Assembly (NCBI RefSeq): GCF_014850955.1
Contig: NZ_JACXSS010000001.1
Span: forward strand, 372,001 to 436,000
Source of the DNA: Methylomonas albis
GTDB taxonomy: Bacteria; Pseudomonadota; Gammaproteobacteria; Methylococcales; Methylomonadaceae
DNA length: 64,000 nt
Direction: 5' to 3'
This document shows positions 23,627-58,214 of the stretch, in pieces. The notes beneath the pieces are model-generated. The model was not told the DNA's origin. It made no database searches and saw only the letters and a list, made by a program, of their open reading frames with translations. Position numbers and translations under genes: made by a program. Positions within the stretch are counted from its first letter, which is position 1. Every line of letters begins with the position of its first letter.

Positions 23627-23696
23627 CGGCCGTTTTCGGCGGGCTTACTATCGCCGATAGCGTCATAAGATACTAACATAAATCGGATTATTGATA

Positions 23697-23930: not shown

Positions 23931-23938
23931 GGTATACA

Positions 23939-24388: not shown

Positions 24389-24403
24389 TATCTTGTCGGT
24401 AAC

Positions 24404-26140
24404 ATGTCCGGCAGGATACCTCGTCAGTTTATAGATGATCTTTTGGTGCGGGTCGATATTGTCGATCTAATCGATTCGCGCGTCCCTCTCAAGAAAAAGG
24501 GTAGTGAATTTGCCGCCTGCTGTCCTTTTCATAACGAAAAAACCCCCAGTTTTAACGTAAATCGCCAAAAGCAGGTTTATCTGTGTCGTGGTTGTGGAGA
24601 GAGTGGGAACGCTATTAGTTTCTTGATGGCTTTCAATAATCTTAGCTTTGTTGAAGCGGTTGAAGATTTGGCTGCTTTTGCTGGCGTGGATGTGCCAAGG
24701 GAGTCAGCTGATAGCGATGTAGATTTGCCGGATAAAAAAACTGTCTCACATGTTTACGATGTCCTGGCGGGTGTTGCAAGTTATTACACCGAGCAATTGC
24801 GTGGAAATTCGGAAGGTCGGCAGGCTGTAGAGTATTTGAAAGCCAGGGGGGTTAGCGGCGAGGTGGCGCGAGATTTTTCTCTGGGCTATGCGCCGAATAA
24901 GTGGGATGCCCTGGTGGCGCGTTTCGATCAGGCGGATTTGATCGAGGCTGGTATGTTGGTGGTCAGAGATGATGGCAAGGTTTACGACCGCTTTCGTGGG
25001 CGGTTGATGTTTCCGATCCGGGATAAACGGAAGCGGGTGGTGGGTTTCGGTGGGCGGGTTTTGGACGATTCTTTGCCCAAATACCTTAATTCGCCGGAGA
25101 CTGCGGTTTTTTCTAAAAGCAAGGAGCTTTATGGGCTTTGTGAGCTTTTGGAGGGGAATAATAAGCCTGAGCGGATATTGGTGGTAGAGGGCTACATGGA
25201 TGTAATCGCGTTGGCTCAGTTTGGTATTTCCAATGCTGTGGCTACGTTGGGTACCGCTACTTCGAAAGCTCAAATCGATTTATTGTTTCGGTTTACCTCC
25301 GAATTGGTGTTTTGTTTCGACGGTGATAACGCTGGCAGGCAGGCGGCCTGGAAGGCTACCGATGCTGCTTTGCCTTGTTTGCGTGATGGCAGGCAAATCA
25401 AAATAATGTTGCTACCCCAGGGGCAAGATCCCGATTCCCTGTTGCGTGCTGAAAATTCATCCGCTTTTATGGAACGAATTCGTAATGCGCAGGTCTTGTC
25501 GGATTACTTTTTCGAGAATATTGCCGGCCAATTGGAGTTAGCAACCGTCGAGGGGCGCTCTCAATTGCTAGCTGCGGCGACGCCGTCGCTGGAGAAGGTG
25601 CCAGCCGGCTTTTTTCGGGAGATGATGTTTGCCCGGTTGCAAGAGTTAGCTGCTACCCGGCTTGCGGTGGATGTTGGTGAAAAACAGGCTAGACTTAAGT
25701 CGAAATTTAATGCTGGTAAATCCATACCATCGCCAAGAGTGAGTTTGGCGCGCAAGGTCATAGGGCTATTGCTGCAGCACCCGCATTTTGCGAGTTTGGT
25801 TGAGCGCGAAGGGGTGATGCTTGATGAGCTGAATTTTGCGGGCGTTGAGTTGTTAATGGATGTTTTACAGAGGGTTGCCCTTGAAAAGCCTGGAAATAGC
25901 GCCATCTTGTTGGAATCTTTCCGGGGAACGCCACAGGAAAAGGCCGTGAAGGTTTTGGCGAGTTTGGAATTGGATGTGCCGATTGGTGGCGAAGAGGCCG
26001 AGTTTTGTGGAGCCTTGCGCCAGCTTTGTAAGCAAGCCAAGGAAGCCACCCTGACCCGCTTGATCGAGAAGGAGAGTCGAGAGGGGTTGATGTTTGAAGA
26101 AAAAGAGGTGCTGCGGAAGCTTTTAAGGGAGAAGACCTAG
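24404..26140 (+). CDS. dnaG: DNA primase
   Basis: 578 residues. The N-terminal CHC2 zinc-binding domain is visible (CCPFHNEKTPSF and YLCRGCGESG), followed by the primase core, the TOPRIM Glu in VVEGYMDVIAL and the DGDNAG metal site, and a helicase-binding C-terminal domain. It makes RNA primers for replication. It is the second essential gene of the rpsU-dnaG-rpoD block. The ATG at 24404 opens the conserved GRIPRQFIDDLL. Confidence 0.97.
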   Translation: MSGRIPRQFIDDLLVRVDIVDLIDSRVPLKKKGSEFAACCPFHNEKTPSFNVNRQKQVYLCRGCGESGNAISFLMAFNNLSFVEAVEDLAAFAGVDVPRESADSDVDLPDKKTVSHVYDVLAGVASYYTEQLRGNSEGRQAVEYLKARGVSGEVARDFSLGYAPNKWDALVARFDQADLIEAGMLVVRDDGKVYDRFRGRLMFPIRDKRKRVVGFGGRVLDDSLPKYLNSPETAVFSKSKELYGLCELLEGNNKPERILVVEGYMDVIALAQFGISNAVATLGTATSKAQIDLLFRFTSELVFCFDGDNAGRQAAWKATDAALPCLRDGRQIKIMLLPQGQDPDSLLRAENSSAFMERIRNAQVLSDYFFENIAGQLELATVEGRSQLLAAATPSLEKVPAGFFREMMFARLQELAATRLAVDVGEKQARLKSKFNAGKSIPSPRVSLARKVIGLLLQHPHFASLVEREGVMLDELNFAGVELLMDVLQRVALEKPGNSAILLESFRGTPQEKAVKVLASLELDVPIGGEEAEFCGALRQLCKQAKEATLTRLIEKESREGLMFEEKEVLRKLLREKT

Positions 26141-26169
26141 GTGACCGCATTAATTTTTGCCGTTATAAT
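26141..26169 (+). promoter_or_regulatory. Internal promoter for rpoD
   Basis: GTGACC at 26141-26146 and TATAAT at 26164-26169 are spaced by exactly 17 bases in the 76-base gap before rpoD. A separate promoter would uncouple sigma factor supply from dnaG, as known in E. coli. Confidence 0.55.
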
Positions 26170-26216
26170 TTCCTGTTCTGCGGCGCTTGGTGCTGAAAAC
26201 GTATTGTGAGTAAAGA

Positions 26217-28028
26217 ATGAATCAAGAACAACAGCAATCCCAACTTAAACAACTGATAGCAAAAGGTAAAGCGCAGGGTTATTTAACTTATGCGGAAGTT
26301 AACGACCATTTGCCTAGCGATATTATCGATCCTGAGCAAATCGACGATATTATCAGCATGATCAATGATATGGGGATTCAGGTTTATGAGGTGGCGCCGG
26401 ATGATGACGATTCACTGATCACCTCCGATGCGGTAGTAACTGCTGATGATGATGAAGAAGTGGCTGAAGTCGCAGCGTTGGCCTCTGTCGATAGCGAATT
26501 TGGGCGAACCACCGATCCAGTGCGGTTGTATATGCGCGAAATGGGATCTGTGGAATTGTTGACTCGCGAGGAAGAATTAAAAATTGCGAAACGGATTGAA
26601 GAGGGGCAGCGGCAAGTAGTTGGCGCTATTGCTCGGTCCGGATTCATTGTCGAGTCTTTTATCGATGCTTTTGATTCCGTGCAGGTTGAAGATTCAGGGG
26701 TCCGGCTCAACGATTTGGTGTTGGGTTTTGTCGATCTCACTGAAGTCGAGGATATTGACGTTAGCGGCATCGAGATTGAAGAGCCTGCCGAAGATGCTGA
26801 GGAAGAGAGCAAAACAATTGATTACGAAGAGGTTAAGCAGAAGGTCGACCTTCTCAGGAAGGCGTTAAAAACTGCGACAGCCTCGGTCAAAAAGAATGGT
26901 TACGGCCATGATAAGACTGAAAAACTGTTCGATACGATTGACGAGATATTTAGTGAATTTAAATGGACGCCGCAGTATTTAAAGAAAATGGTCTCCGTTT
27001 CCGAAGAGTTGATTACTGCTATTCGTGAAGAAGAACGTTTCATATTGGACGTTTGCGTTAAAAAAGCAAAAATGCCGCGTAAGGACTTTATTAATGCCTT
27101 TGCGGAGAACGAGGCTAATCTCGATTGGTTGGATCAGTTCATCGCTACGAAGCCGAATTTCGCCGAGGTCTTCAGTGGTCATCGCGAGCGCATTAGGGCG
27201 GCACAACTGCGATTAGCGGATATCGAGTCTCGCTTCGGCTTAAGTATTGCGGTGTTGAAAAGTATTTGCCGCAGTATCTCCTTGGGCGAAGCCAAGGCTA
27301 GACGTGCTAAAAAGGAAATGATCGAAGCGAATTTGCGTTTGGTTATTTCTATAGCCAAAAAATACACCAATCGCGGTTTGCAGTTCTTGGATCTGATTCA
27401 GGAAGGTAATATTGGCTTGATGAAAGCGGTCGATAAGTTCGAATATCGGCGCGGCTACAAATTTTCTACCTATGCAACCTGGTGGATCCGTCAGGCTATT
27501 ACCCGCTCGATAGCCGATCAGGCCAGGACAATTCGTATACCTGTGCATATGATCGAAACCATTAACAAGCTGAACCGTGTTTCCAGGCAGATTCTGCAAG
27601 AGCTGGGGCGCGAGGCAACGCCCGAAGAATTGGCTGAGCGCATGGAAATGCCCGAGGATAAAATTCGCAAAGTGCTGAAGATTGCCAAAGAGCCGATTTC
27701 GATGGAAACGCCGATTGGCGATGATGAAGATTCGCATTTGGGGGATTTTATCGAAGACTCCAAGATGCTATCGCCTGTCGAATCTGCTACAATCGCCGGC
27801 CTTCGCGAGTCCACTCAGAATGTATTGGCGGGATTGACGGCCAGAGAAGCTAAAGTGCTGAGAATGCGTTTTGGCATCAACATGAATACCGATCATACGC
27901 TGGAAGAAGTGGGTAAGCAGTTTGATGTAACCCGTGAACGGATCCGTCAGATCGAAGCCAAAGCCTTACGGAAATTAAGACACCCATCCAGGTCTGAGCA
28001 GTTGAGATGTTTTCTTGATGGCGAATAA
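26217..28028 (+). CDS. rpoD: RNA polymerase primary sigma factor (sigma-70)
   Basis: 603 residues. Region 1.1 is at the N-terminus ([25 protein letters not shown]), then region 1.2 ([22 protein letters not shown]), the non-conserved region, region 2 ([22 protein letters not shown]), region 3 and region 4 with the helix-turn-helix ([21 protein letters not shown]). The acidic insert near residues 180-200 is within the variable region. The main housekeeping sigma factor, with the classical dnaG-rpoD order. Confidence 0.98.
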
Positions 28029-28062
28029 GGCGTTTGCATCGTATGCAGGCTAGATAAATTGA

Positions 28063-28139
28063 GGGCCCTTAGCTCAGTTGGTTAGAGCTTCCGACTCATA
28101 ATCGGCAGGTCGTAGGTTCAAGTCCTACAGGGCCCACCA
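28063..28139 (+). tRNA. tRNA with CAU anticodon, most likely tRNA-Ile2 (lysidine type)
   Basis: A 77-nt cloverleaf with encoded CCA: acceptor GGGCCCT/AGGGCCC, D-arm with AGCTCAGTTGG, anticodon loop CTCATAA, T-arm GTAGGTTCAAGTCCTAC. The CAU anticodon could mean Met, but the body resembles the ileX-type tRNA-Ile2 (TTAGCTCAG, CGACTCATAATCG), and this gene lies right after rpoD, as ileX does near rpoD in enterobacteria. Reading AUA would require TilS modification. Confidence 0.88.
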
Positions 28140-43355: not shown

Positions 43356-46300
43356 ATGTCCGTAAGGAAGACCAAGCATGCAGCTGGCGCCAAAGCTGCG
43401 CCTACAATAGTCGCTTCCGGTGATTGGTATCGTCGTCCTGGATTTTGGTTGGGTTTAGCTTTGACGCTGGCCTTACTGTCCACTGTAGGTGCCTTTCGCC
43501 AGGCGTCGCATCCCAATGCCTATCGCCCGTTAGCCGCTTTTCCAAGCTGGGATTTCTTTCGCTATCCTGTCGAGCGCAACGCCTTTCGGCGGCTGCCGGC
43601 GATTGCCGGTAATCTCAATGATCTTGCGGTTGCCGATGATGGTCAACGTATCTGGGAGGTGGGTAGCGGTGGTCTGATTGTCTATAGCCAGGATGGTGGA
43701 GTGAGTTGGCGGCAAGGCCAAATCGGTCCGCCCCCCGCCGAATCGGTGGTGCAGGACAGCAGCTTCTGGATTAACGATGCTCAAGCCGGGATGCCTCCGG
43801 AACCTCAACAACAGTACCTGCCACCAGTCGATGTCGGTAACTCGGCGTCTAATGTTCTGAAAGCCAACTCCGACTATGCCAATGCACCGGCGCGCCAGGA
43901 GCTGCCAGCAGATCCTAATACGCAAACGACGCAAAGCGTTGGGCAAGCCATTGATTTGTCGACTATAAGACGCAACGCTCTAGAGAAACAGACTTTAGCC
44001 AATCCAGTATCTGAACGCGGTCTTGACAAAAAAGCGCCCGTAAATGTCGCCCAGCCTCCGGCAGTGAAGCAGAAAGTAGCGGAGATTGATCCAAAAGCAA
44101 CGGACTTGACAGCGGTTTCGTTTATCGACTCCCTTCGTGGCTGGGCGGTCGGTAACGGCGGGATAATCTTGGCTACGACAGATGGGGGCAGGAGTTGGCA
44201 AAATCAGCGTAGCGGCACTGACGGAGCGCTTAGCAGCGTGTATTTCGCTGACAGCGTCCACGGCTGGGCGGTGGGTTCGGGCGGTATCATCCTGGCGACC
44301 AGCGATGGCGGTAAAAATTGGCAAAGCCAAGCTAGCGGGACTGCGCAGTGGCTGGGTTGCGTGAAATTTACCGATAATTTGAATGGCTGGGCGTTAGGCG
44401 GCAACGGCCTTATCGTTGCTACTAAGAATGGCGGTGAAACCTGGCAAGTGCAGGCTGGCAATGTCGCGCGCACCCTTAATAGTGTGGCTTTTATCGATGA
44501 TTTGCGTGGCTGGGCGGTAGGCGAAGCGGGGGCGATTGTTGCTACCAATGATGGCGGGAAGGCTTGGCAAGTCCAGACCAGCGGCAGCTCGGAACACCTG
44601 AACAGCGTCCGGTTTTTAAAAGACGGTTTGCACGGTTGGGCGACGGGCGATAACGGCCTTATAGTCGCGACGATGGACGGTGGCCGTAGTTGGCAAACTC
44701 AAAGCAGCGGCACCTCGTCCAACCTACGTAGTCTGGGTTTTCTAAGCGATGGCTCGCGGGGATGGGCGGTGGGTGGTGACGGCACCCTACTCACTACCAG
44801 CGATGGCGGGAACACTTGGCAAGTTGCCAGCCAGAAGTCGTTGACCCGTGTGCAATTCCTAAGCAATCTGCAGCAGGGCTGGGTTGTGGGCGCTGACGGT
44901 TTAATTTTGACCACAAATAACGGCGGGCAAACTTGGCAAGTTCAGCTTAGCCATACGGCTCAACATCTGTTTGGTTTGCATTTTCTTGCCGACGGTAGTC
45001 GCGGTTGGGTAGCCGGACATGGCGGTACGGTACTGAATACGCTCGATGGCGGTCAGAATTGGCGAGTTCAAGCCAGCGGTGTCGATAGCCGACTATATCG
45101 AATACAGTTTCTCGAAGACGGTTTACGCGGCTGGGCGGTGGGGGATTCTACACTCATCACTAGCCGCGACGGCGGACAGAATTGGCAACAAAAAACAGGG
45201 GTGAGGCCGGAGACTTTCGCGCTTGCTTTACATTTTCAAGCTGATGGTCTGCGCGGATGGATCGCTGGCGATATGGATAGAGTCTATTTCACCGCTGATA
45301 GTGGTGGGACTTGGCAATCTCAAGTTATCGGCTCCGGGAAAGTTATTGCCGACATTCATTTCCAAGCCGATGGGCAGCGTGGTTGGGCTGTAGGTCGATA
45401 CGGCACGATTTTAGCCACCCGCGATGGCGGAAAAAATTGGCAGGCTCAGACCAGTTTGACCAAGCAGGACCTATGGGGACTGGCGGTTGCCAGCGACGGT
45501 AGTCGCGGCTGGGCAGTCGGTAGCGGCGGCACGGTGCTCGCGACGAAGAACGGCGGCGAAAATTGGCAATTACAAACCAGCAACACATCGGCATTCTTGA
45601 CGGATATTCATGGCGACGATGCCGGCCGTCACGCCTGGATCGTCGGTGCAGCAGGCACCATACTCGCTACCAGCGACGGCGGCGAGCTGTGGCAAGATCC
45701 GGTGTTGCCTTATCAACGCTATCCAGCACCCTGGTATTACCTGAGCTGGTTGCCAATATTGCTGTTGTTCAGCCGTGGCTTGCGCTTGCAGTTGCTTGAA
45801 TTGCGCGAACCGGAAGCCAACGATTCCAACTTAGGCATTAATCCGACCGCAGCTTCCGACAAGCCCACCGGTCCAGGCAGTCGTGATTATCTAGGCAGTT
45901 TGCAGCTGGCAAGGGATTTGTCCACCTTTCTGCGCAATGAAAATACCTTGCCGCCGTTGACGTTGGCGATTACTGGGGATTGGGGCAGCGGGAAAAGTTC
46001 GGTGATGAATTATTTGCATGCCGAGTTACGCCGCGAGGGTTTACGGCCGGTGTGGTACAACGCCTGGCACCATCAGGAAGAGCAACAGGTACTGGGCTCG
46101 ATTCTGGAATGTGTGCGGCAGCAGGCCACGCCGCCGCTGTGGCCTTGGATAGTACCAGGTTTATGGTTCAGATTACGCTTGCTGACTCATCGGCGTTTTT
46201 GGTTGCAACTGTTGGCGGCCTTGCTATTGACCGGTGTTTGCTGGTTGGCGGTGTTTGCGTATTTTCATGAAGAGTCGGAAGAGAATCAGGTCTGGCATTT

Positions 46301-48068
46301 CGCTTCTAATCTAGCCGGGCTGGAACAGCCGGCGGTGTTGACTGCGCAAGGCTATACTCGCTTATGCGCCAACGCGGAAGGGACTGCCAATCCAGGCAAA
46401 CCGCAGATCGAAAATCTGTTTGGTGCGGCCGATTGTCAGAATTTGCACTGTTTGGTGAATGCGGAAGCCTCCGGCGAAGCAAATCAACCGGCGAATTGCA
46501 AAGATACCTTAAGCCGTTTCGCCAGCGACGATAACTTGCTAGCACATGCCGGTGCATTACTGGGCCACGAACTAACCCAGGAGCGCAAACAGGCTATCGT
46601 TAAACAATTGGAACACAGTCCGGGCAAAGCACCCTTTGCTTTGCCTGCCTGGTTGACGGCATTGTTGACGGTGTTGACTACCGTGGCCGGGGTCGTTGTG
46701 ATTAAGGGCGCTTCATTGTTTGGTTTGGCCAGCACCGATCTACTGAAGACCGCTATCAGTAAGTCGGGCGTTATAGAAGCCACCGAGTCGGTCGGTACCC
46801 GGCAAATTTGGGAACGGCGTTTCGAACGTCTGACCCGTTTGTTGGGGCGACGCCGGTTGGTGTTGTTTATAGACGATCTTGATCGTTGTAGCCGAGATCA
46901 TGCGCTGCGGGTGCTGGAAACTTGTAATTTTTTGGTCAGTAGCGGCGAGTTGTTCATCGTGATGGGTATTGCCCCCAAATATGTGCTGGCCAATGTGAAA
47001 CTGCATTTCAAGGAACTCGCCGAGGCCTTGCATGAATTTGACGATAATGGCCTGGACAAAGCCGCGACCGGTGCTGCTGATCAGGCTGCACCCGTTCAGA
47101 AACCTCGCAGTCTGGCGCGTTTTTACCTGCAAAAACTGATCAATATCGAAGTGCCGGTGCCCACCGCCGGTAGTGAAGCGATGCTGAACATGTTAACCGG
47201 GAGCGGCGGCGAGGAGGATAGGCGTGGTCAACGCGAGCAGTGGTTGCAAACCTTTAGCAACGGTCTGGTATTGACGTTGCAGATTCTAGCCCTGCTGTCC
47301 GCGATGGGCTGGGCGGCTTTTCATGCCAGTCAGCCGATACTCATCACGTCGAAACCGCCTGTTTCGATGCAGCAAACGCTGCCGGAAGCAGTAAGTAAGT
47401 CTGCAGAGAGCAGCGTAGAGCCTGAGGTCGAGACACCTGACAAACTTAAAACCGAGTCGGGCATCGCCTCGTTGCGCGCCGATTTCAAGCCCGAGCAATT
47501 GACACCCTGGCCGCAACGCATCGGTTATGGCTTGTTGCTATTGTTTATGTTGTTCGTTGCAGGCTTGGTGTGGGTTGGCGTCAACGAAAAAGCCCGGAAT
47601 TGGTTAGTCGATTATCTGGAAATGGCTTACAAAGCTTTTGGTCGAGATTGGTTCGGGCCGCGGCAAATCCAGGATACTCCGGAGTTTGCTGCGGCTTTGC
47701 GGATCTGGTATCCGCTGATCCACAAAACCCAAGCGCAACCGCCGGAGTTCAATTCGCCACGCACCGTCAAAGCCTTTTTAAATCGCTTACGCTGTTTCGC
47801 CAGTCGCTGGCCGAAAACCACTGGTGTACACGGCGAAGCGCAATTGGTCGCGTTGGCGGCTTTGCATTTTTATTTGGGGGAGGACGGCTTTGAAAAAGCC
47901 GCTAACGATTTAAAACTGGACGAGCCTCCCGGTGTTTATTTGAGTGCGTATCCAAATTCTGCGCAATCCATTGTGCAACATTTGCAAACATTTGGCCCAC
48001 CCAGCGACGACGATTGCCAGTTGTTTAAATATTTCATCGAGAATCTGGAAATCCACAAACCGCAATAG
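43356..48068 (+). CDS. Transmembrane Ycf48-like beta-propeller fused to KAP P-loop NTPase
   Basis: 1570 residues. A first membrane helix (about 29-47) is followed by a Gln/Pro/Ala-rich linker (120-245) and an array of about 41-residue blades with the core GWAVGxxGxIxATxDGGxxWQ (degenerate one near 99, then thirteen from about 262 to 775). A second helix is near 792-810. Then a KAP-type NTPase: Walker A GDWGSGKSS (about 874) and WYNAWHHQEE, with membrane segments inserted near 948-970 and 1096-1118, and Walker B LFIDDLDRC (about 1170). Two more helices lie near 1303-1323 and 1390-1410. The propeller should be periplasmic and the ATPase cytoplasmic. KAP proteins organise membrane complexes or act in phage exclusion; the role here is unknown. 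Confidence 0.85.
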   Translation: MSVRKTKHAAGAKAAPTIVASGDWYRRPGFWLGLALTLALLSTVGAFRQASHPNAYRPLAAFPSWDFFRYPVERNAFRRLPAIAGNLNDLAVADDGQRIWEVGSGGLIVYSQDGGVSWRQGQIGPPPAESVVQDSSFWINDAQAGMPPEPQQQYLPPVDVGNSASNVLKANSDYANAPARQELPADPNTQTTQSVGQAIDLSTIRRNALEKQTLANPVSERGLDKKAPVNVAQPPAVKQKVAEIDPKATDLTAVSFIDSLRGWAVGNGGIILATTDGGRSWQNQRSGTDGALSSVYFADSVHGWAVGSGGIILATSDGGKNWQSQASGTAQWLGCVKFTDNLNGWALGGNGLIVATKNGGETWQVQAGNVARTLNSVAFIDDLRGWAVGEAGAIVATNDGGKAWQVQTSGSSEHLNSVRFLKDGLHGWATGDNGLIVATMDGGRSWQTQSSGTSSNLRSLGFLSDGSRGWAVGGDGTLLTTSDGGNTWQVASQKSLTRVQFLSNLQQGWVVGADGLILTTNNGGQTWQVQLSHTAQHLFGLHFLADGSRGWVAGHGGTVLNTLDGGQNWRVQASGVDSRLYRIQFLEDGLRGWAVGDSTLITSRDGGQNWQQKTGVRPETFALALHFQADGLRGWIAGDMDRVYFTADSGGTWQSQVIGSGKVIADIHFQADGQRGWAVGRYGTILATRDGGKNWQAQTSLTKQDLWGLAVASDGSRGWAVGSGGTVLATKNGGENWQLQTSNTSAFLTDIHGDDAGRHAWIVGAAGTILATSDGGELWQDPVLPYQRYPAPWYYLSWLPILLLFSRGLRLQLLELREPEANDSNLGINPTAASDKPTGPGSRDYLGSLQLARDLSTFLRNENTLPPLTLAITGDWGSGKSSVMNYLHAELRREGLRPVWYNAWHHQEEQQVLGSILECVRQQATPPLWPWIVPGLWFRLRLLTHRRFWLQLLAALLLTGVCWLAVFAYFHEESEENQVWHFASNLAGLEQPAVLTAQGYTRLCANAEGTANPGKPQIENLFGAADCQNLHCLVNAEASGEANQPANCKDTLSRFASDDNLLAHAGALLGHELTQERKQAIVKQLEHSPGKAPFALPAWLTALLTVLTTVAGVVVIKGASLFGLASTDLLKTAISKSGVIEATESVGTRQIWERRFERLTRLLGRRRLVLFIDDLDRCSRDHALRVLETCNFLVSSGELFIVMGIAPKYVLANVKLHFKELAEALHEFDDNGLDKAATGAADQAAPVQKPRSLARFYLQKLINIEVPVPTAGSEAMLNMLTGSGGEEDRRGQREQWLQTFSNGLVLTLQILALLSAMGWAAFHASQPILITSKPPVSMQQTLPEAVSKSAESSVEPEVETPDKLKTESGIASLRADFKPEQLTPWPQRIGYGLLLLFMLFVAGLVWVGVNEKARNWLVDYLEMAYKAFGRDWFGPRQIQDTPEFAAALRIWYPLIHKTQAQPPEFNSPRTVKAFLNRLRCFASRWPKTTGVHGEAQLVALAALHFYLGEDGFEKAANDLKLDEPPGVYLSAYPNSAQSIVQHLQTFGPPSDDDCQLFKYFIENLEIHKPQ
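44104..45695 (+). repeat. Thirteen tandem propeller-blade repeats (about 123-126 bp each)
   Basis: Blade cores recur at intervals of 118-128 bases (for example near 44138, 44261, 44384, 44507, 44633 and 44759). With the degenerate blade at about 43650 there are fourteen, which would suit two seven-bladed propellers. DNA identity between blades is moderate, so expansion is not very recent. Confidence 0.8.
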
Positions 48069-48137: not shown

Positions 48138-50246
48138 TTAGGGACAGTCTGATTTTTTTAACCATTCCTCGTTAGGTAGCCAGTTATCTATCCAGGCATG
48201 TAAGTCCCCGGCCGGCATTGGCCGGGCGATGCCGTAGCCCTGGGCGTTATCGCAGCCCAATTTCAGCAATAGCAAGCCGTGTTCCTCGGTTTCGACGCCT
48301 TCGGCTATCACTTGTCGATGGAAGGCGGCCGTGAGATTGATGATGCCGGCGACGATGGCCAGATCTTCCGGGTCGCCGAGGATGTCGTGGATGAACGATT
48401 GGTCGATCTTTAAGGTTTCGGCCGGCAGGGCTTTCAGGTAGGTCAATGATGAATAGCCGGTGCCGAAATCGTCCAGCGCAAAGCCGACGCCCAGCTTTTG
48501 GCATTCCTTCATTACGGCCGTGACGCGGCCAATATCTTCCAGCGCGGCAGTTTCCAGTATCTCCAGTTCCAGGCAGTGGGGGCGCAATTGCGGATGGGCG
48601 GCAAAGCCGGATTTCAGGGTTTCGACAAAGTCATGGTGCAGTAAATGCCGAGGGGCGATATTGATACTAATGACAATGTTCAAGCCCATGTTCTGCCAGT
48701 GTTGCAGATGGTCTAGGGCGCGGGCCAATACCCAGTTGCCCAGGGCTATCACCAGATCGGTACCTTCTATATCGGGCAAAAACGCGGCAGGCGACAATAA
48801 GCCTCGCTCGGGATGCTGCCAGCGTATTAAAGCTTCTGCGCCCAGTACTTTACCCATGCGCATATTAACTTTGGGTTGGAAGTACAGCACGAATTGGTTG
48901 TTGAGTAGCGCGGTCTCGATTTGCGTCAAGGTTTCGCCGCGTATTAGCGCGATCCGATCCAGTTCCTGATCAAACAGGTGGTAGCGATTTTTACCGCGTT
49001 GTTTGGCGATATACATGGCCTGGTCGGCATGCCGTAACAGGGTGTCGGCATTTGCCTGATCGTTGGGGTACAGCGTAAAGCCAAGGCTGGCGGATACGCA
49101 GACCAGATTGTCTTCAATCGACGTTGGTTCCGCGACCGCGCAGAGCATGCGCTCCAATACGGCTTCGCATTCGCGGCTATCGCTAAAATCCAGTAATAGC
49201 AGCACAAACTCGTCGCCGCCGATGCGGGCCACGGTATCGCCGGCTCTTAGGCAGTCGCGGATGCGTACCGAAATTTCTATCAGCAATTGATCGCCGACAT
49301 CGTGACCGAATTGGTCGTTCACCGGCTTAAAGCCGTCCAGATCCAGATAACATATCGCCATGTGATTGCCGGCACGATGGGTGTGGGCTAACGCTTGCGC
49401 AAGCCGGTCGGCCAGTAATACCCGATTGGGAATGCCGGTTAACGGATCGAAATGTGCTATGCGTTCCAGATCGTATTCATGGTTTTTCAGCGGAGTGATG
49501 TCTGCCGACAAGCTGATGTAATGATGAATCTGGTTATTGTCGTCTCGCACCGCCGAAATTGAAGTCAGCGCGGCAAATACCTCGCCCTTCCTATTACGGT
49601 TCCAGAGTTCGCCGCTCCAATGATCGTGTGCGTTTAGCGATTGCCACATGGCTTTGTAAAATTCTGTTGATTGCCGACCGGATTTGAGCATGCTGGGGTT
49701 TTTGCCCAGTACTTCTTCGCGTGAGTAACCGGTAATTCGGCTAAAAGCCGCATTGACATCGATGATGCGATTCTCGCTGTCGGTAATTACCACACAGTCG
49801 TGGGTGTGAGCGAATACGCTGGCTGCCAAGCGTTGCTCCGCTTCTCGGCGTTGCAGTTCTTGGCGAAATTGCTCGCGCTCCAGCAAGTTGCGAATGCGTA
49901 GGCGGGCAATTTCGATGCTGATGGGTTTGGTTAGATAGTCAGCGGCGCCCAAGGAAAAACCTAGTGTCTCGGCTTGAGTTTCGTTTAAAGCCGTAATGAA
50001 CACAATCGGAATGTCTTTCAGGCGCGGATTGGCCTTGATCCGGCGGCAGGTTTCATAGCCATCCATATCCGGCATCATGATGTCGAGCAGGATCAGGTCT
50101 GGCGGGGCATCGAGCGCCAATTCCAGGCCTTTGCCGCCGGAGGTGGCGATTTGAATTTGATAGTCGTCTTGCAATGCCAAACCTAACAAGGCCAGGTTGG
50201 AGGGCGTGTCGTCTATGGCAAGAATTTTCAGCTGTTTGCTGTTCAC
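48138..50246 (-). CDS. Response regulator with PAS, GGDEF and EAL domains (c-di-GMP turnover)
   Basis: The start is best placed at GTG 50246, which overlaps the histidine-kinase stop (GTGA) and opens [14 protein letters not shown]; an ATG 7 codons upstream lies inside the kinase gene. 702 residues: REC (phosphoacceptor Asp55 in [13 protein letters not shown]), PAS (about 145-265), GGDEF (RIGGDEF near 342, intact) and EAL (AEALIRW near 470, with [10 protein letters not shown]). Both catalytic signatures are intact, so it could make and degrade cyclic-di-GMP. It should receive phosphate from the kinase encoded immediately upstream. It is the last gene of the six-gene corrinoid operon. Confidence 0.92.
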
Positions 50247-51880
50247 TGGACTTGCGCTCCATCCCAACCCAATACGGCATAAAGTCGCCGTAATTGTTGG
50301 CGTGCCGGGTCAAATTTCATTTCGATAACCAACTGGGTTATTACGGCAAAACACGGCTCTATCGGGCTGCCGTGTAGTTGGTTCTGTAATGCCTTGGCTT
50401 GATTAATGGCATGGAACATGTTTTTGGCAAGTAATTTGTCGAGTTCGTCCAGTAGTGGCCGTAACTCCGGGTTATGTTGAATCGAGGCTATTTCTGCCGC
50501 GCTGATTGTCGGGTCGGACAACGCAACGGGAGGCGGCTCCATGTAGCTTTGAGAGATGTCCGGCGTATCTGCATGCAGTTCCGCGCCTAACATGGGTAGG
50601 GGCTCTTGTTGGTAATTGTTATTGTGCAAATGACAATCAACGATTTCGCAACGGATTCTGAACCAGAAGCGGGCGCCTGCGCCGGAGCTACTTTCCACGC
50701 CGGCCTCGCCCTGCATCAGTCCGGCAAAACGTTGCACGATCGATAAGCCCAGGCCGGTGCCGGCGTACCGCCGTGTTGAACTGGCGTCAAGCTGGGTAAA
50801 AGGTTTGAATAACAGGTGTTGTTGCTCAGGAGCAATGCCTATGCCGTGATCGGTGACTGAAAATTCTAATTGAGCTTGCGAACCTTGCCGCCGCAGTTCG
50901 GTTACGTGGATTTGGATGACACCCTGACTGGTAAATTTAATGGCATTGCTAACCAGGTTTGAGAGCATTTGTCTGACTCTGATTTGATCCAGTAAATAGC
51001 ATTGCTCGGCGGGGCCTAACCAGGCGCTTTCAATCTGCAGATGTCTCTGATGCGCACTTTCACCAAACAGCGATTGAACTTCGGCAATGATTTGGCGCGG
51101 TTGCGTGGCCGATAACACTAGCTCCAGGCGATTCGCCTCGATTTTGGACAAATCCAACACATCATTTAGCAGGGTTAGCAAGATTTGCCCGGATGTCAGG
51201 ATGGTACGGGCGCATTCTTGATGCTTGCTTGGGTCGCAATCCGGCATGTTGAGTAATTGCGCCATCCCCAAGATACCGTTCAACGGGGTGCGGATTTCGT
51301 GTGACATGGTGGCCAGGAAGTTACTTTTGGCCTGATTCGCGGTTTCAGCGATACGGGTTTTGATTTCATTGCTCAAAATCAGCGCCATGTGCGAGAAAAA
51401 CGGCGATAGGTAATCGCGCATTTGCGCGGAGCCCAGCATGTCGGTCATTTTGATGGCGCCGAGTAACTCTTTGCCGATTTGCAAGGGCATGACCCAGGTG
51501 CAGGCGACGGCCGGGGTGATGCCGCGGAGTAGCGTGCGCTGAGAATCCGTTGCTTGTTCGACAAAGCGACGGTGTTGAAAAACTTCACTGATCAATGGGT
51601 CGTCGATATGATCGAGAATTTGGCGTTCGCCGGCTAAGTTGGCGAAATGAATCTCGCCCTCGTCCAGATAATAAATTTCGACATTACTGCCGCCTAAACT
51701 GCCGCACAACGCGGTCATCAGGCTCTCCAGCAGTCCCTCGACGCCAGCGATGGGGTTTAGCAACTCCACCATGTGCAAGATTAGATATAGATTCGCCTTT
51801 TCTTCCGAAAGCTTGCGGGCGCGGGTCTCCAATTGCTTGACCCGTTCCTGCAGTTCTCGATAAGAAGGCGCTTGATTCAT
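50243..51880 (-). CDS. Histidine kinase with GAF domain
   Basis: The start is ATG 51880, overlapping the DUF1638 stop (ATGA); the frame runs further upstream without conserved sequence. 545 residues: coiled coil (5-30), GAF-like sensor (about 35-175), HisKA with His194 ([15 protein letters not shown]), HATPase with N-box LVSNAIKFT and the [10 protein letters not shown]-box, then about 110 residues with no receiver or Hpt motif seen. No membrane segments, so it senses a cytoplasmic signal. Its position inside the corrinoid operon suggests that signal relates to the methyl-transfer or redox state of the corrinoid module. Confidence 0.9.
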
Positions 51881-52497
51881 TGATCCGCGGCAAGCCGGCG
51901 TTGAATGGCATCGGCCAATACCGACTCCAAATGCTCCAGGTTGACATCCCTCCACTCCAGCGGCAGATCGACGAACCGGGCGGCGGCTTCCGCCGCGGAA
52001 CTAAAATCGCCGTTACACGGCGTGCGGAGGGCCAGAATATATTTGTGGCTGCTGTGGAATATCTCTCGAATCACCGTCATGTTCGCGCCGAAGCACGCGG
52101 TGATCATCGGCTCCCAGGTCAAGGCCCAATCTTCCAGTAAAAAATACGCGCCTTTTTCCAGTTCCTGCATGAACAGCTCGTAGCCCAATAACATCACGAT
52201 ACAGTTTTGGCCGTGGGTGCGGCAGGTGTGGTGGCCTTCCAGATATTTTTCCATCAGGGGGTGACAGCCGCCGTAAAACACCACGGTTTTTTCACCGAGT
52301 TTCTCGCGCTCTTCCAGTGCCTGATTCAGCTCGGTGGATAAACGATTCAGGTAGTTGTGTAGGGCCGAATCCAGATAATGGGTATGGACGTTCCACCGAT
52401 TTTTCTCGATTAATCGATCCACTTCCTTGCGCAAGATGCCGCAGCCTATCATCGTCAGCGGCGGTTGATTTTCCGGTTGGATTACGAAGGTTTTCAT
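51877..52497 (-). CDS. DUF1638 protein of the corrinoid operon
   Basis: 206 residues. It has the DUF1638 pattern: [38 protein letters not shown] and a central [10 protein letters not shown]. Cysteines near residues 20, 78, 92 and 99 could bind a metal or corrin. The family is often encoded beside corrinoid methyltransferases, with no proven function. Both ends overlap neighbours (ATGA with the methyltransferase and ATGA with the kinase). Confidence 0.8.
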
Positions 52498-53522
52498 TCC
52501 AGTCTCCCATATTCGAAAGCGGCATCGACCATAGCCAGAATGTTGGCCTCGGGCACTGCCAATGGCATTACGCCGTTACCGAACAGAAAGTGGCCGCCGG
52601 TTTTGCCTATTTCAATAATACGTTTTACTTCGGCGCGGGTTTGTTCCGCGCTCCAATGAATCATTTTAATATCGTCGATGACGCCGCAGGTCAGGCCGCG
52701 GGTATTAATCAGGCGTTTGGCTTCGGCGATGTCGGCAAGCGGGCTAATGTGGTGGCTTTTGATGTGAAGTTCATCGAAAACCAAATCGATTACATCGTTA
52801 AAAGGGGCCATGCCACAGTAATAGACCACGCCTTCGCTGCCGCCCGGCAGTAAGTCCCGTTGCATCCAGGGCATTACGATGTGCTCGATTTGTTTGCGGC
52901 TGACGAAATATGGCGAGCCGAATGGCGAGGAATAAATTAGGACATTTGCCCCTAAGGCACGCAAGGCGGCGATTTCTTGTTGGAAAAAGTCCGAGCATTT
53001 GCGTAGTAGTTCGTCGCGTATGTCGAAAGGGCCGAGCAGGAATAGCTCCATCCATTTGTCCATGCCCATCAAAATGGCCGGCAAAGTGGTTGAGGCCGTG
53101 ATGTACGCGCAAATTGGATGTGTAGCGCCGACTTCAGTGCGCAAAATCCGCATACAGTCGGCGATGGGTTGCCACGCTGGATGTTGGGTAATGTCGGCCG
53201 GAATGTCGAATTTAGCGATGTCGTCCAAGTTTTTAATGACAAAGTCGGCGACATTCGGGACGCCGTCGTCGGCAAACAGAATTTCCCGGCAACCCAGCAA
53301 TTCCGCCTCTTTGCCGACGTAATGCAGGCTCCATATGTTGTCGTATCCGTAACGCCGCAGCATGCGCAATTGGGCGTCGGCGACATATTCACCCATGCTG
53401 AAGTATTCCTTGGCAGGCATCCCCAATTCCCTGGCGCCGTGATCGGGGAGATTGCAAAAAATTGGAATACGCGGTGCTGGTGCGCCGCTTGTCGCGGCGT
53501 TAAGAATTTCGAGAGGTGTCAT
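52494..53522 (-). CDS. UroD-family corrinoid methyltransferase (MtaA/MtbA-like)
   Basis: 342 residues, (beta/alpha)8 UroD fold. Family methyltransferases carry a zinc site His-x-Cys...Cys; here the aligned positions are Tyr234, Cys236 (VVYYCGMAP) and Asn316 (FGNGVMP), so two of three ligands are changed. This may mean altered metal use, or a sensing rather than a catalytic role. It would exchange methyl groups with the corrinoid protein encoded upstream (ATGA overlap). No substrate-specific MtxB partner (MtaB, MttB or MtrH type) is in the cluster. Confidence 0.85.
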   Translation of the reverse strand: MTPLEILNAATSGAPAPRIPIFCNLPDHGARELGMPAKEYFSMGEYVADAQLRMLRRYGYDNIWSLHYVGKEAELLGCREILFADDGVPNVADFVIKNLDDIAKFDIPADITQHPAWQPIADCMRILRTEVGATHPICAYITASTTLPAILMGMDKWMELFLLGPFDIRDELLRKCSDFFQQEIAALRALGANVLIYSSPFGSPYFVSRKQIEHIVMPWMQRDLLPGGSEGVVYYCGMAPFNDVIDLVFDELHIKSHHISPLADIAEAKRLINTRGLTCGVIDDIKMIHWSAEQTRAEVKRIIEIGKTGGHFLFGNGVMPLAVPEANILAMVDAAFEYGRLE

Positions 53523-54184
53523 GGTTTGACTCCGCGAATCAAATCGACGATGACTTTGGCGGCGGTGACGCCATCAGGTGCCCAGGCATCCGCGCCGACC
53601 TTGGTGTACAGCTCGGGATCGAATCGGTAGGGGGCACCGCCTACCACTAGTTTGATTTGTTGTTCCAAGCCGCGCTGTTGTAACAACGTCCGCACACCCA
53701 AACTGCCTTTTTCACTGGTGGCCGTATGTACCATCATCGCAGACACGGCAATGACCTGAGCGTTTTCGCTGATCGCGGCATCGACGAACTTGTCGGCGCT
53801 GACATTGGTGCCTAGATCAATCACATCCACCATCAACGATTTCAAACAGCCGCTGACGATACGTTTGCCCAAGGAATGCAGGTCGCCGTGGGCTGCACCG
53901 ATGACGACCCGGCCGATCATTTCCGGGGGCTTGCTGAATTTTTCCAGCATCTTTTCTGTGACGTCGGCGGCTATTTGCGCGGTCATGAAATGCTGGGCCA
54001 GATTGGCGTCAGGGTCTTTTTCAATCAAGGCCATCATTAATTCGACTGCCGGGATAACCAAGTTGAAAACTATGTTCTCCGGACTAAAGCCGTCGAGCAA
54101 AGCCTGATTGACGACATCCAGCGCCGCTTGCTTATCGGTTTCGAATACCGCCTGATTGTAGGATTGAATATAAGCATCAAGCAT
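53519..54184 (-). CDS. Corrinoid (B12-binding) methyl-carrier protein
   Basis: The start is ATG 54184, overlapping the RACo stop in TAATG; the frame runs 52 codons further into RACo but without family similarity. 221 residues: N-terminal four-helix B12-binding cap (about 1-85) then the cobalamin domain with the lower-ligand motif Asp101-x-His103-x-x-Gly106 (GDLHSLGK), VSAMMV and VGGAPY. It holds cobalamin in the base-off/His-on form and carries a methyl group between methyltransferases, as in MtaC/MtbC. Belongs to the six-gene operon. Confidence 0.93.
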   Translation of the reverse strand: MLDAYIQSYNQAVFETDKQAALDVVNQALLDGFSPENIVFNLVIPAVELMMALIEKDPDANLAQHFMTAQIAADVTEKMLEKFSKPPEMIGRVVIGAAHGDLHSLGKRIVSGCLKSLMVDVIDLGTNVSADKFVDAAISENAQVIAVSAMMVHTATSEKGSLGVRTLLQQRGLEQQIKLVVGGAPYRFDPELYTKVGADAWAPDGVTAAKVIVDLIRGVKP

Positions 54185-55833
54185 TATTCGTACTCCGCGA
54201 TGGGCATGGGTTGTAAGCGTAAATGGTCGATAAAGCGATTTTCGTATTCGAAAACTCCGCCAAGATTGACTACGCGAGCCCTTTGGACAATAGCATTCAA
54301 TCGAGTTTGCCCTGTTGGGTTCAACAACAGCTGTTCGCAACCGGCCAAGCTGGCGTTGGCCAGTAGGCTCACTCGGTCAGAGGAGATTGCCGGCAGTAAG
54401 CCGACACGGAACGCGCTGTTCAGATCCAAATGCTGGCCAAAACTGCCGCAAATCCATAGCCTGTCTAAATCCTTTGCGGTCAAGCCTGCCATGACTAGCA
54501 ATTGTGCCATGGCTGCCGCTGTTGATGCCTTGGCACGCTGAAAAATATCGATGTCGCTCGCAAAAATGGCACTTCGTGGTGTGTTTTCCTGCAATAAAAA
54601 ACCCTGCTCGGTTTGGGGCTCGGCGAAACGTCCGGACGGTTTCAGTTGCTTTTCATCCAACAGCAGCGCAATCGCATCGATGAAACCGCTGGCGCAATAG
54701 CCGCGCGCCGGCGCGTCCCCTATGGTGTGCAAGCGTCGTGTGCCTGCACTTGTCGACACTTTACAAATCGCACCGGACTCGGCAGTTAAACCGTTACGCA
54801 TACCCACACCTTCAAATGCCGGTCCGCCTGGAACGGAGCTAGCCCAAAGGTTTATGCCATCCCACAGCGCGATTTCGGTATTGGTGCCGAAGTCTGCCAA
54901 TAGCATTGGTTGCGTCTGTGTAGTAACGCCGGTAGCGAGCAAGTCGGCCAGCAAGTCGGAGCCGATAAAACCGGCCAGGGGTTGGGCGATGTCTATTTTG
55001 GCATGCGGGGTTCGCCAGGCGTGGCGCCAGGCCTCGGTATCGACCGGCTGGCAGGCAATGGGGCTTTGCCAGTTTTCCGGTTGGTAAAGACTGTCGCCAC
55101 TATTGCCGCAGATTAGCGAGAGCATCGCGGTATTGCCGACTATCAGTACCTTGCCCAGCTCGGCAAGAATAGGCGTGATTTCACCCATGTCCCGACTGAG
55201 AATATCGCGAATGCCATCCATGATAGCATCGCGGGCTTGTTGACCTATCCTCAGGCAATCTTCGACGTCCAGGCGTTCGGCATCCAGACGAGTCAACACG
55301 TCGGCACCATGCGCTACCTGCGGGTTGATGCTGTAGCGCGTGCCGATTCGGCGTCCGGATTGCCGATTCCATAAGGACAGGCGAATATGCGTGGTGCCCA
55401 GATCGACCGCGACGCCGTAAACGTATGCGGTGACGGCTGGGTCGCCGTCGGCCCGATAAAGTTGAGAGGTATCCAGACTTTTCCAGTCCGAGTGCGGCGC
55501 GGGGTTTTCCAGATAAAGTTCGCAGTCGCTACGCACGCGTAATTGGCAGGCCAAGCGCACGCCGCTGGCCAGATCTTCCGGTAGCAGTTTTTGCCGTTCC
55601 GCCAGTGTCGGCGGATTGAAGTCGCCGCTGATGGTTTGAATCAGACACGCGCCGCAGGTACCCAAGCCGCCACAGGCTGCCCGCACGCGCAAGTCGGTGG
55701 TGTCCAGCGCTTGCCGCACCGACATAGTGGAGTTTATCGGTAAACATAGCGTCTGCGTTTCGCTACGGATAGTCGCCAGCGGGGCTCTATCCGGGGAAGA
55801 GGGGCGCTCGGTATTCAATGCGGTCTCAGTCAT
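54184..55833 (-). CDS. RACo-type reductive activator of corrinoid protein
   Basis: 549 residues. An N-terminal 2Fe-2S ferredoxin domain (Cys54, Cys60, Cys63, Cys96: ACGGLGTCGAC and RLACQ), a linker, then an ASKHA ATPase domain (GVAVDLGTTHIRLSLWN, LIVGNTAMLSL, LADFGTNTEIALWDG). RACo proteins use ATP to drive re-reduction of inactive Co(II) corrinoid to Co(I). Such activators are best known from anaerobic methyl-transfer systems, so finding one in what looks like an aerobic methanotroph is notable. First gene of the operon; its start has no clear ribosome site. Confidence 0.92.
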   Translation of the reverse strand: MTETALNTERPSSPDRAPLATIRSETQTLCLPINSTMSVRQALDTTDLRVRAACGGLGTCGACLIQTISGDFNPPTLAERQKLLPEDLASGVRLACQLRVRSDCELYLENPAPHSDWKSLDTSQLYRADGDPAVTAYVYGVAVDLGTTHIRLSLWNRQSGRRIGTRYSINPQVAHGADVLTRLDAERLDVEDCLRIGQQARDAIMDGIRDILSRDMGEITPILAELGKVLIVGNTAMLSLICGNSGDSLYQPENWQSPIACQPVDTEAWRHAWRTPHAKIDIAQPLAGFIGSDLLADLLATGVTTQTQPMLLADFGTNTEIALWDGINLWASSVPGGPAFEGVGMRNGLTAESGAICKVSTSAGTRRLHTIGDAPARGYCASGFIDAIALLLDEKQLKPSGRFAEPQTEQGFLLQENTPRSAIFASDIDIFQRAKASTAAAMAQLLVMAGLTAKDLDRLWICGSFGQHLDLNSAFRVGLLPAISSDRVSLLANASLAGCEQLLLNPTGQTRLNAIVQRARVVNLGGVFEYENRFIDHLRLQPMPIAEYE

Positions 55834-56291: not shown

Positions 56292-57581
56292 ATGGAACTC
56301 GACAAACAATCGGCCGAGCACCAGGCTACCATTTTGTTAGTGGATGACGAGTCTATCAATCTGTCGATTTTCGGGCAGTTTCTCACTCCGCACTATCAGG
56401 TTTTGGTGGCTACCAACGGCGAGCGGGCTTTGCAGTTAGCTGGCAGCAGGCCCAAGCCGGATTTGATCTTGTTGGACGTGATGATGCCTGGCATGGATGG
56501 CTATCAAGTTATCGGTCATTTAAAAGCCGATCCGAATACCCTCGATATTCCGGTGATATTTGTCACCGCCCTGAGCTCCGATCTTGAGGAAGAACGTGGC
56601 TTGTTGCTGGGCGCAGTGGATTACATTTACAAGCCTTGCCATTTATCCATTCTATTAGCCAGAATCAAAACCCAGCTGGAGTTGAAGAATGCCCGCGATT
56701 GGTTGAAAGACCAAAATGCTTATTTGGAAACTGAGGTGCAACGTCGGTATCTGGAAAATCAGGCTGTGCATTTGCAATTATTGCAATCGGAAAAATTGGC
56801 GGCGATAGGGCAACTGGCGGCCGGCATCGCTCACGAAATTAATAATCCCATTGGTTTTGTTAATTCCAATCTGAATACCCTGAGCGGCTATTTGCGCGAT
56901 ATTTTTTGCGTGCTGGATGCCTGGGGCGCGGCTTTAAACGAAAACCCCATTTCGATTGAAACTCAGCAAAACTTACGCGAGCTAAAACAAACCAAGCAGC
57001 TCGACTATTTACGCGGCGATATTCCGGAATTAATCGCCGAGTCCAGGGAAGGTTTGTCGCGGGTGCGCGATATTATTCAGGATTTGAAGGATTTTGCGCA
57101 TGTCGACAAAAACGATTGGGAGTTGGGCGATTTACATAAAGGTCTGGATTCCACGTTGAATATTATCAGTAACGAGCTGAAATACCATTGCACCGTACAC
57201 AGGCAATACGGCGAGATTCCGCAGATTTCTTGCATTCTCTCGCAATTAAATCAGGTGTTTATGAATTTGCTGATCAATGCTGCGCACGCTATCGAGACCA
57301 AGGGCGATATTCATATTCGCACCGGTTGCACTGAGCAGGAGGTTTGGGTGGAAATCAGCGATAACGGCAAAGGTATTGCCCCGGAAAACCTGTCGCGTTT
57401 GTTTGAACCGTTCTTTACCACTAAACCGGTGGGCAAGGGCACCGGCTTGGGGCTGTCGATTTCGCAAAACATCGTTCGCAAACACGGCGGCAGAATCGAA
57501 GTGGCTAGCGAACTCGGTCAGGGCAGCCGGTTTCGAGTTTGGCTGCCGATACAAGCACCGAACTTGAGTAGTTCCGAATAG
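56292..57581 (+). CDS. REC-domain histidine kinase
   Basis: 429 residues from ATG 56292. REC domain (Asp near 61 in LILLDVMMPGMDG), coiled coil (about 125-165, DWLKDQNAYLETEVQRRYLE), HisKA-like dimerisation domain with His near 180 (AAGIAHEINNPIGFV) and HATPase (LINAAHAIE, GIAPENLSRLFEPFFTTKPVGKG region, GLGLSIS). This REC-first architecture is common in kinases that act downstream of another kinase. Divergent from the corrinoid operon and followed by a REC-only gene, so the three may form one signalling pathway (inferred). Confidence 0.9.
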   Translation: MELDKQSAEHQATILLVDDESINLSIFGQFLTPHYQVLVATNGERALQLAGSRPKPDLILLDVMMPGMDGYQVIGHLKADPNTLDIPVIFVTALSSDLEEERGLLLGAVDYIYKPCHLSILLARIKTQLELKNARDWLKDQNAYLETEVQRRYLENQAVHLQLLQSEKLAAIGQLAAGIAHEINNPIGFVNSNLNTLSGYLRDIFCVLDAWGAALNENPISIETQQNLRELKQTKQLDYLRGDIPELIAESREGLSRVRDIIQDLKDFAHVDKNDWELGDLHKGLDSTLNIISNELKYHCTVHRQYGEIPQISCILSQLNQVFMNLLINAAHAIETKGDIHIRTGCTEQEVWVEISDNGKGIAPENLSRLFEPFFTTKPVGKGTGLGLSISQNIVRKHGGRIEVASELGQGSRFRVWLPIQAPNLSSSE

Positions 57582-57674: not shown

Positions 57675-58214
57675 ATGAACCAGGCAGACATTAAAATACT
57701 GATCGTCGACGACGAGCCAAACGTGCTGAAAGCGCTAACGCGTTTGCTGAAACAATACGAGCCTGTCACCGCTATTAATGGCGAGGAAGCTTTATTGTTA
57801 GCCAAGGAACATAGCTTCGATCTGGTGATTTCCGACTACCGGATGCCGGGTATTAACGGTATCGACTTTTTGATTTTGTTCAAGCGCATGCAGCCGGACG
57901 CGATACGCATCGTGTTGACGGGGTTCGCCGACCTGGAAGGCGCGCAGCATGCCATCAATGAAGCGCAAGTGTATCGTTTTATCAACAAGCCCTGGAGCAA
58001 TCTGGAAATCGTCAATGTCGTGGAAAACGGTTTGGCCCACAAACGCATGCTGATGGAAAACCGGGCCTTGGCTGATCAAGTGCGCGCCCAGCAAAAGCTC
58101 CTTGATGAAAAAGAAGCGATCATCAAGGCGCTGGAAGCCGAGGAGCCGGGTATTACTAAGGTCAATTGGGCGCAGGATGGTTCGATTATTCTTGATGACG
58201 AAGACTTGAAATAG
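57675..58214 (+). CDS. REC-domain response regulator with coiled-coil tail
   Basis: 179 residues. The REC domain (Asp54 in LVISDYRMPG, TGFAD, NKPWSNLEI) is similar to the receivers found in HD-GYP/RpfG-type regulators. After it come only a coiled coil (about 120-155) and an acidic tail ending WAQDGSIILDDEDLK; no output domain is visible. It could be a phosphate relay or adaptor for the preceding kinase. GAACC/AACC before the ATG is a weak ribosome site. Confidence 0.85.
   Translation: MNQADIKILIVDDEPNVLKALTRLLKQYEPVTAINGEEALLLAKEHSFDLVISDYRMPGINGIDFLILFKRMQPDAIRIVLTGFADLEGAQHAINEAQVYRFINKPWSNLEIVNVVENGLAHKRMLMENRALADQVRAQQKLLDEKEAIIKALEAEEPGITKVNWAQDGSIILDDEDLK

Follow-up and report, generated by a model that had tools for sequence, protein, structure and literature searches.

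A corrinoid methyl-transfer module as the probable sensory front end of a cyclic di-GMP circuit in Methylomonas albis

Why should an aerobic methanotroph encode proteins of corrinoid methyl transfer in one operon with a histidine kinase and an enzyme of cyclic di-GMP (c-di-GMP) turnover? The question is raised by a stretch of 64,000 nucleotides of Methylomonas albis (assembly GCF_014850955.1, contig NZ_JACXSS010000001.1, positions 372,001 to 436,000; hereafter the window), where six intact open reading frames (ORFs) fill positions 48138-55833 of the minus strand. They encode, in order, RACo, a corrinoid protein (CorP), a methyltransferase of the UroD family, DUF1638, a GAF histidine kinase and a response regulator with REC, PAS, GGDEF and EAL domains (Table 1). 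The known corrinoid methyltransferases serve catabolism or biosynthesis, and signalling based on vitamin B12 is known mainly from light receptors and riboswitches. Going by sequence, we consider it fairly probable that the six genes work as a single signalling unit, a two-component c-di-GMP circuit whose input is provided by a corrinoid methyl-transfer enzyme that has taken on a sensory role.

The distribution of the genes among relatives supports a single unit, gained and lost together, made up of the corrinoid genes and those of the kinase and the c-di-GMP enzyme. In a survey of 61 genomes, the own genome (5.4 Mb) included, DUF1638 was found in 22, and so were the N-terminal domain of the kinase itself and, at E below 1e-90, the corrinoid protein, the 22 genomes being the same for all three and the matches lying side by side on one contig in each. 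The remaining 39 genomes have none of the three parts; with the corrinoid query, 38 of them give only weak matches, most of which fall in ORFs as long as MetH, and one gives no match. A first-pass annotation of this DNA had proposed that the corrinoid module and the signalling output have one function, with the corrinoid module as a sensor, and that relatives in which the kinase and GGDEF genes are never linked to the corrinoid genes would speak against it; linkage in 22 of the 61 genomes, and the fused homologues described below, bear out the single function and, as far as co-occurrence and fusion can, the idea of a sensor. The closest named relatives are Methylomonas, with DUF1638 identities of 93-96% in five named records (L021-L025; L and G numbers denote our loci and genomes), and the full order RACo-CorP-UroD-DUF1638-kinase-REC/GGDEF/EAL is found in the long named loci L021-L028 and L030.

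It is the gene order that is conserved, and not a coupling by overlap. The five junctions in the window overlap by 1, 4, 4, 4 and 4 bases (TAATG, ATGA, ATGA, ATGA, GTGA), which agrees with the first-pass annotation, as do the six genes, their order and their families, with Pfam concurring except for the GAF domain, which was recognised by a structural model and Foldseek. Overlaps of 1 or 4 bases are common within bacterial operons, so the overlaps alone are little proof of joint function. The strict translational coupling that had also been suggested stands as far as the overlaps in this strain are concerned and is only partly conserved over 21 loci of Methylococcaceae type (L026 and L049 among them being one contig): a 1- or 4-base overlap is possible in 18/21 between CorP and UroD, in 16/21 between DUF1638 and the kinase, in 12/21 between RACo and CorP and in 9/21 between kinase and regulator, and the 4-base overlap of UroD and DUF1638 is the one junction possible in all 21. 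It is because the other junctions vary that we do not regard coupling by overlap as the conserved feature.

Family searches, which were confined to Pseudomonadota, revealed several versions of the unit. Type 1, the type of the window, has separate genes for DUF1638 and the GAF kinase as well as a RACo gene, and occurs in Methylomonas, in other Methylococcaceae and in several genomes that are less closely related but belong to the same class and phylum. In type 2, CorP and UroD are followed by a single protein in which DUF1638 is joined through a linker domain, and sometimes PAS as well, to a kinase or GGDEF domain. By Pfam, DUF1638 is fused in 13 proteins (L036-L039, L108-L110, L114-L118 and Azoarcus sp. 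KH32C), 12 of which end in a kinase, the one in L114 with a HATPase match and no HisKA match, while that of L039 ends in PAS-GGDEF, a diguanylate cyclase. The fused DUF1638 passes the Pfam cut-off of 27 bits in 10 of the 13 (L110, L118 and Azoarcus fall below it with 25.3, 26.1 and 22.5 bits) and is homologous to the separate DUF1638 (hhalign 98%, E 5e-14). A corrinoid protein and a UroD gene precede 12 of the 13, and L117 begins at a contig end. The existence of such fused homologues shows that DUF1638 and the kinase belong together. The UroD tree separates the 35 rows of type 1 (support 97/100) from the 16 rows of type 2 (88/93), each type being a group by itself; the outgroups are long-branched and their placement is unsure.

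A third arrangement, CorP-UroD-RACo directly followed by a GAF-GAF-GGDEF diguanylate cyclase and lacking DUF1638, is found on the Thiodictyon plasmid pTs417 (L155, 7332-12323). In a fourth (L034, G016:C2, about 7.7-12.6 kb) MtaC-MtaB replace CorP and UroD; RACo and DUF1638 come next, and then a giant protein with Ser/Thr-kinase, AAA, GAF, PocR, PAS, histidine kinase and REC parts; this locus comes from a 77% complete bin and could lie on a contaminant contig. In L110 (3825-7307) two successive CorP-UroD pairs stand before a single DUF1638-kinase fusion and a REC-GGDEF gene. On the Azoarcus plasmid, type 2 adjoins formylmethanofuran/tetrahydromethanopterin (H4MPT) and quinoprotein genes. One-carbon (C1) neighbours were considered as a general clue to the ligand and rejected, because the flanking genes tested in L108, L110, L111, L118 and L119 give no such sign, being of sugar, translation, transposase, helix-turn-helix, oxidoreductase or amylase type or unmatched.

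The signalling genes go with UroD. Of the 50 longer loci with UroD and DUF1638 (49 distinct, L026 and L049 again being one contig), 41 have a kinase core or GGDEF domain at most 3 kb downstream. Among those that do not, L029, L112, L119 and L120 have a contig edge within 450 bases, L029 retaining the first 140 kinase residues; L126, L130 and L131 have a GAF-PAS protein and hybrid kinases further on; L111 has a DUF1638-linker-PAS protein without a catalytic domain; and L145, the last of the nine, has no signalling gene after it. An NMT1/THI5-like substrate-binding protein (by Pfam in L126 and L130) lies between the GAF-PAS protein and the hybrid kinases in those three loci. The 16 longer loci without UroD (L127, L132-L144, L146, L147) have no kinase or GGDEF match in the stretch read. 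The longer loci were selected: 40 of the 87 matches found outside the own genome were read with their surroundings, loci from other searches were added, and 34 of the 47 matches left out come from two families (f224, f228). As a check for bias, all 58 short loci outside the own genome were scanned unselected, with 1.5-kb flanks where the contig allowed: UroD is present in 13, and a kinase, GAF or linker-domain match accompanies it in 11, the misses being L063 (same genome as L145) and L075 (contig end), compared with none of the 45 short loci without UroD. Genes of the relatives were called as longest ORFs and with small custom hidden Markov models, so that starts are often too long and some genes in GC-rich stretches were missed, e.g. 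the UroD of L113, found later by motif analysis; the custom DUF1638 model misses many loci caught by that of Pfam.

What do the proteins themselves tell? RACo has the 2Fe-2S, RACo middle and C-terminal domains of the family. The corrinoid protein has the DxHxxG motif and B12-binding fold of the MtbC/MttC/MtgC type, and since the motif is retained in every aligned corrinoid row the cofactor should be bound base-off/His-on; the protein reaches the cut-off of no named subfamily, the best being TIGR02370 with 94.4 of the 215.3 bits required. The UroD protein has the URO-D fold (PF01208), matches the MtaA structure 4ay7 (6.8e-11), and stays below the MtaA/CmuA cut-offs of NCBIfam (TIGR01463, 51.8 vs 235.4 bits; NF040654, 61.7 vs 400). 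MtaA and a CmuA control carry HxC...C, residues which we take to be the zinc ligands of methyltransferases of this kind. Aligned to 4ay7, two of the three positions are changed in the window UroD (YYC...N), type 2 has THLASG...DNHGEIP, and the motif tables give the full HxC...C set in 0 of 50 UroD rows. As the set is replaced in both types, an MtaA-like thiol methyltransferase is an unlikely role for the window UroD, as far as its alignment indicates; each type nevertheless keeps strongly conserved pocket motifs of its own. Three cysteines are retained in nearly all DUF1638 rows, and a metal or thiol role for them would be a guess. An AlphaFold2 model of DUF1638 (13 sequences, predicted local distance difference test, pLDDT, 51) was too poor and was left out of the fold search, and no credible structural relative was found among solved proteins.

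The signalling half is that of a regular two-component c-di-GMP system, a HisKA/HATPase kinase followed by a REC-GGDEF-EAL protein, with motifs intact. Pfam agrees with all domains of the six proteins other than the GAF domain, which it does not call in the window kinase; a model of kinase residues 1-188 (mean pLDDT 74) resembles GAF domains of solved structure (Foldseek E about 4e-6), which places a predicted GAF domain at about residues 45-175. Of the regulator, 21 relatives, full or partial, were compared: every one shows the GGDEF and inhibitory-site patterns, 18 have EALIR (not L026, L032, L049) and 19 have DDFGTG (not L032, L049); the L032 regulator has no EAL domain, and in L049 both patterns are missed since the fetched stretch, not the contig, ends there. 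With these patterns so widely kept, the regulator may be capable of both synthesis and breakdown of c-di-GMP.

Possible metabolic partners were sought in the own genome. It has four B12-binding proteins, namely MetH, the operon CorP, a radical SAM protein and a CarH-like MerR-B12-binding regulator (L160, G000:C1:1727500-1730000, 495-1466), and two proteins of the UroD family, the stronger match of which is presumably HemE. No MttB, MtaB or MtrH was found, in a search that did not extend to single-domain pterin-binding acceptors outside MetH; a metabolic MtxB partner elsewhere in the genome, which the first-pass annotation had named as a possible objection, is thus not seen in the form of MttB or MtaB. 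On the other hand, it is doubtful whether a substrate-specific methyltransferase is lacking, as that annotation stated, because UroD may itself be this enzyme, the family including such methyltransferases, e.g. CmuA (PMC9768040; here and below, cited articles are represented by extracts). The part that is absent is the second methyltransferase, of MtrH type, on the acceptor side. RACo and DUF1638 as helpers of MetH were considered and rejected: MetH carries its own activation domain (Met_synt_B12 3.2e-131), so neither is needed for it. The locus also departs from a split methionine synthase or MtgBCD-type locus in having UroD, next to a host MetH with its own activation domain.

A sensory role is to us the simplest reading, because an acceptor of the MtrH kind is lacking and DUF1638 is fused to kinases and a cyclase. 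We imagine that RACo, aided by DUF1638, would hold the cobalt of CorP in the reactive Co(I) state, as the genetics of homologues suggests, and that UroD would bind one methylated or other small C1-type compound and alter the axial state of the corrinoid, most simply by methylating it. Without a dedicated MtrH-type acceptor methyltransferase the corrinoid would stay methylated and in this way report the compound. DUF1638 would contact CorP and relay the state of the corrinoid to the GAF domain of the kinase, if the signal runs in that direction, and the kinase, going by domains and operon position, would phosphorylate the REC domain of the GGDEF-EAL protein and shift c-di-GMP, which may in turn affect biofilm formation or motility. 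Somewhat more speculatively, there could be a new class of sensors here. A complete methyl-transfer enzyme, made up of UroD, CorP and DUF1638 and in some cases RACo, would signal by its methyl-cobalt state; throughout Pseudomonadota it would serve histidine kinases and diguanylate cyclases alike as an exchangeable input, and UroD (MtaB in L034) would determine which C1 compound is sensed. We propose this tentatively, as a possibility rather than a probability. If the operon is a sensor, aerobic methanotrophs and other Pseudomonadota would read specific C1 or methylated compounds by B12 chemistry and answer through c-di-GMP, genes of the UroD family and of DUF1638, now annotated as enzymes or as unknown, would gain a function, and there would be a concrete link between methane/C1 metabolism, the supply of B12 by partner bacteria, and attachment. 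Since the parts of the module are soluble and not unusually large, the idea lends itself to direct testing.

Other explanations have to be weighed against this. Independent genes that share an operon by chance would fit with the short overlaps, since such overlaps are common in operons; the three tested parts standing side by side in the same 22 of 61 genomes argues against it and the fusions largely refute it, and we regard it as very improbable. The first four genes could instead be an ordinary demethylation pathway that catabolises a methylated compound, with the kinase and the c-di-GMP enzyme merely adjusting the lifestyle to it. All parts of the operon are homologues of metabolic systems, the mec dichloromethane cassette likewise has a kinase, a corrinoid protein, UroD proteins and a receiver (PMC9768040), L145 has no signalling genes, and the Azoarcus type 2 locus lies beside C1 genes. 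Against such a pathway stand the lack of an MtrH-type acceptor, MttB and MtaB in the own genome and the fusion of DUF1638 to kinases and a cyclase; moreover, the regulator is a c-di-GMP enzyme and not a transcription factor, and there is no transporter or C1 gene among the six. We think a demethylation pathway quite unlikely.

It could also be that the corrinoid state is sensed without any methyl chemistry. The module would then respond to the supply of B12, to redox or oxygen through Co(I)/Co(II), or to light through photolysis of an alkyl-cobalt bond, and UroD would only be a docking or binding protein. The lack of a RACo match in the type-2-only genomes would fit, as cycling through Co(I) may not be needed there, and so would a UroD that has lost two of the three MtaA zinc-ligand positions; B12 proteins with diguanylate cyclase domains do exist, the photocobilins (PMC11796333). 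The type-specific conserved pocket motifs of UroD and the two CorP-UroD pairs before one kinase in L110 suit substrate recognition better, and the window type retains RACo, which makes this explanation, in our judgement, rather unlikely.

The reading we prefer, a methyl-transfer sensor, has its own difficulties. The unit is absent from 39 of the 61 relatives, and since these include complete genomes of the same genus (G007, G013, G017) it is accessory. RACo has no match in any of 10 type-2-only genomes, 8 of which are at least 95% complete; type 2 does not seem to need it, and reactivation by RACo cannot therefore be a universal step. L145 has RACo-CorP-UroD-DUF1638 and no signalling gene after them, so a non-signalling form of the module may exist. 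The fused linker domain is only weakly similar to the kinase GAF domain (hhalign 71.5%, E 3.6e-5), the REC pattern LLDIxMP is found in 18 of 21 regulator relatives and unmatched in L032, L041 and L046, and the poor DUF1638 model gave no view of a contact surface. The scope of the acceptor search also leaves room for a single-domain pterin-binding acceptor.

Among known systems, the split MetH of Phaeobacter inhibens (PMC5764234) and MtgBCD of Ruegeria (PMC12478193) also bring together a RACo-type activase, a separate corrinoid protein and DUF1638; unlike the operon, they serve methionine synthesis or betaine demethylation. In P. inhibens the fitness patterns of a RamA-like protein and DUF1638 resemble those of the split methionine synthase, from which reactivation of B12 was inferred, and the authors made no specific proposal for DUF1638 (PMC5764234). 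In Ruegeria a RamA/RACo-like protein and DUF1638 both increase on N-osmolytes (PMC12478193). It is this kind that the 16 long loci without UroD, none of which has a kinase or GGDEF match, resemble.

The mec cassette, in which the PocR kinase MecA, the corrinoid protein MecB, MecC/E/I of the UroD superfamily and the receiver protein MecD are clustered, comes close to the operon; it differs in being from anaerobes and thought to be catabolic, with MecD listed as a transcriptional regulator and MecF as a likely methyltransferase II (MTII), and the extracts mention neither DUF1638 nor a c-di-GMP domain (PMC9768040). The MsmS and RdmS proteins of Methanosarcina are likewise GAF/PAS sensor kinases tied to methyl-sulfide metabolism, but they are archaeal, read their signal by heme or thiols and have no histidine that could be phosphorylated, and the regulators they act on have no REC domain (PMC6944256, PMC11784639, PMC11619418, as extracted). 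In CarH and the photocobilins the state of B12 drives the output, in some a diguanylate cyclase, but these proteins respond to light and contain the B12 domain themselves, and no methyltransferase partner, RACo or DUF1638 is mentioned in the extracts (PMC11796333). CmuA, the chloromethane methyltransferase, joins a UroD fold to a corrinoid domain in an aerobe; it differs in retaining HxC...C and in being catabolic. In the open-licence literature, as represented by extracts, we found no account of a module of corrinoid protein, UroD and DUF1638 that is connected to a kinase or cyclase, and none, among articles naming DUF1638, of DUF1638 in signalling.

Table 1. Genes of the operon and optional members beside it (window positions)
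Feature	Position	Strand	Length (amino acids)	Remarks
RACo (2Fe-2S + ASKHA reductive activase of corrinoid proteins)	54184..55833	-	549	Fer2, Raco_middle and RACo_C_ter above Pfam cut-offs
Corrinoid protein (CorP)	53519..54184	-	221	base-off/His-on motif GDLHSLG; Pfam B12-binding 9.8e-21
UroD-family methyltransferase	52494..53522	-	342	Pfam URO-D 4.6e-34
DUF1638	51877..52497	-	206	PF07796 4.6e-29
Cytosolic GAF histidine kinase	50243..51880	-	545	Pfam HisKA, HATPase_c; GAF by model and Foldseek
Response regulator REC-PAS-GGDEF-EAL	48138..50246	-	702	GTG start; Pfam
Divergent REC-histidine kinase (optional member)	56292..57581	+		Pfam
Stand-alone REC protein after the divergent kinase (optional member)	57675..58214	+		Pfam

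The divergent REC-histidine kinase gene, missed by the first-pass annotation, lies next to the operon in divergent orientation in 14 of the 69 stretches searched (52-86% identity) and possibly belongs to the same circuit; the stand-alone REC protein is found near the operon in 10 of the 69. No riboswitch was found at the operon, the only Rfam matches at gathering score in the window and eight loci being tRNAs. On the other side, adjoining the operon at 43356-48068, is a protein of 1570 amino acids in which, read by eye, many GWAVG-type repeats are joined to an apparent P-loop nucleoside triphosphatase region. Further away, at 20001-28136, the G+C content goes down to 0.484 with a strong GC skew directly to the left of a tRNA gene (28063-28136), and this part of the window could be an inserted element.

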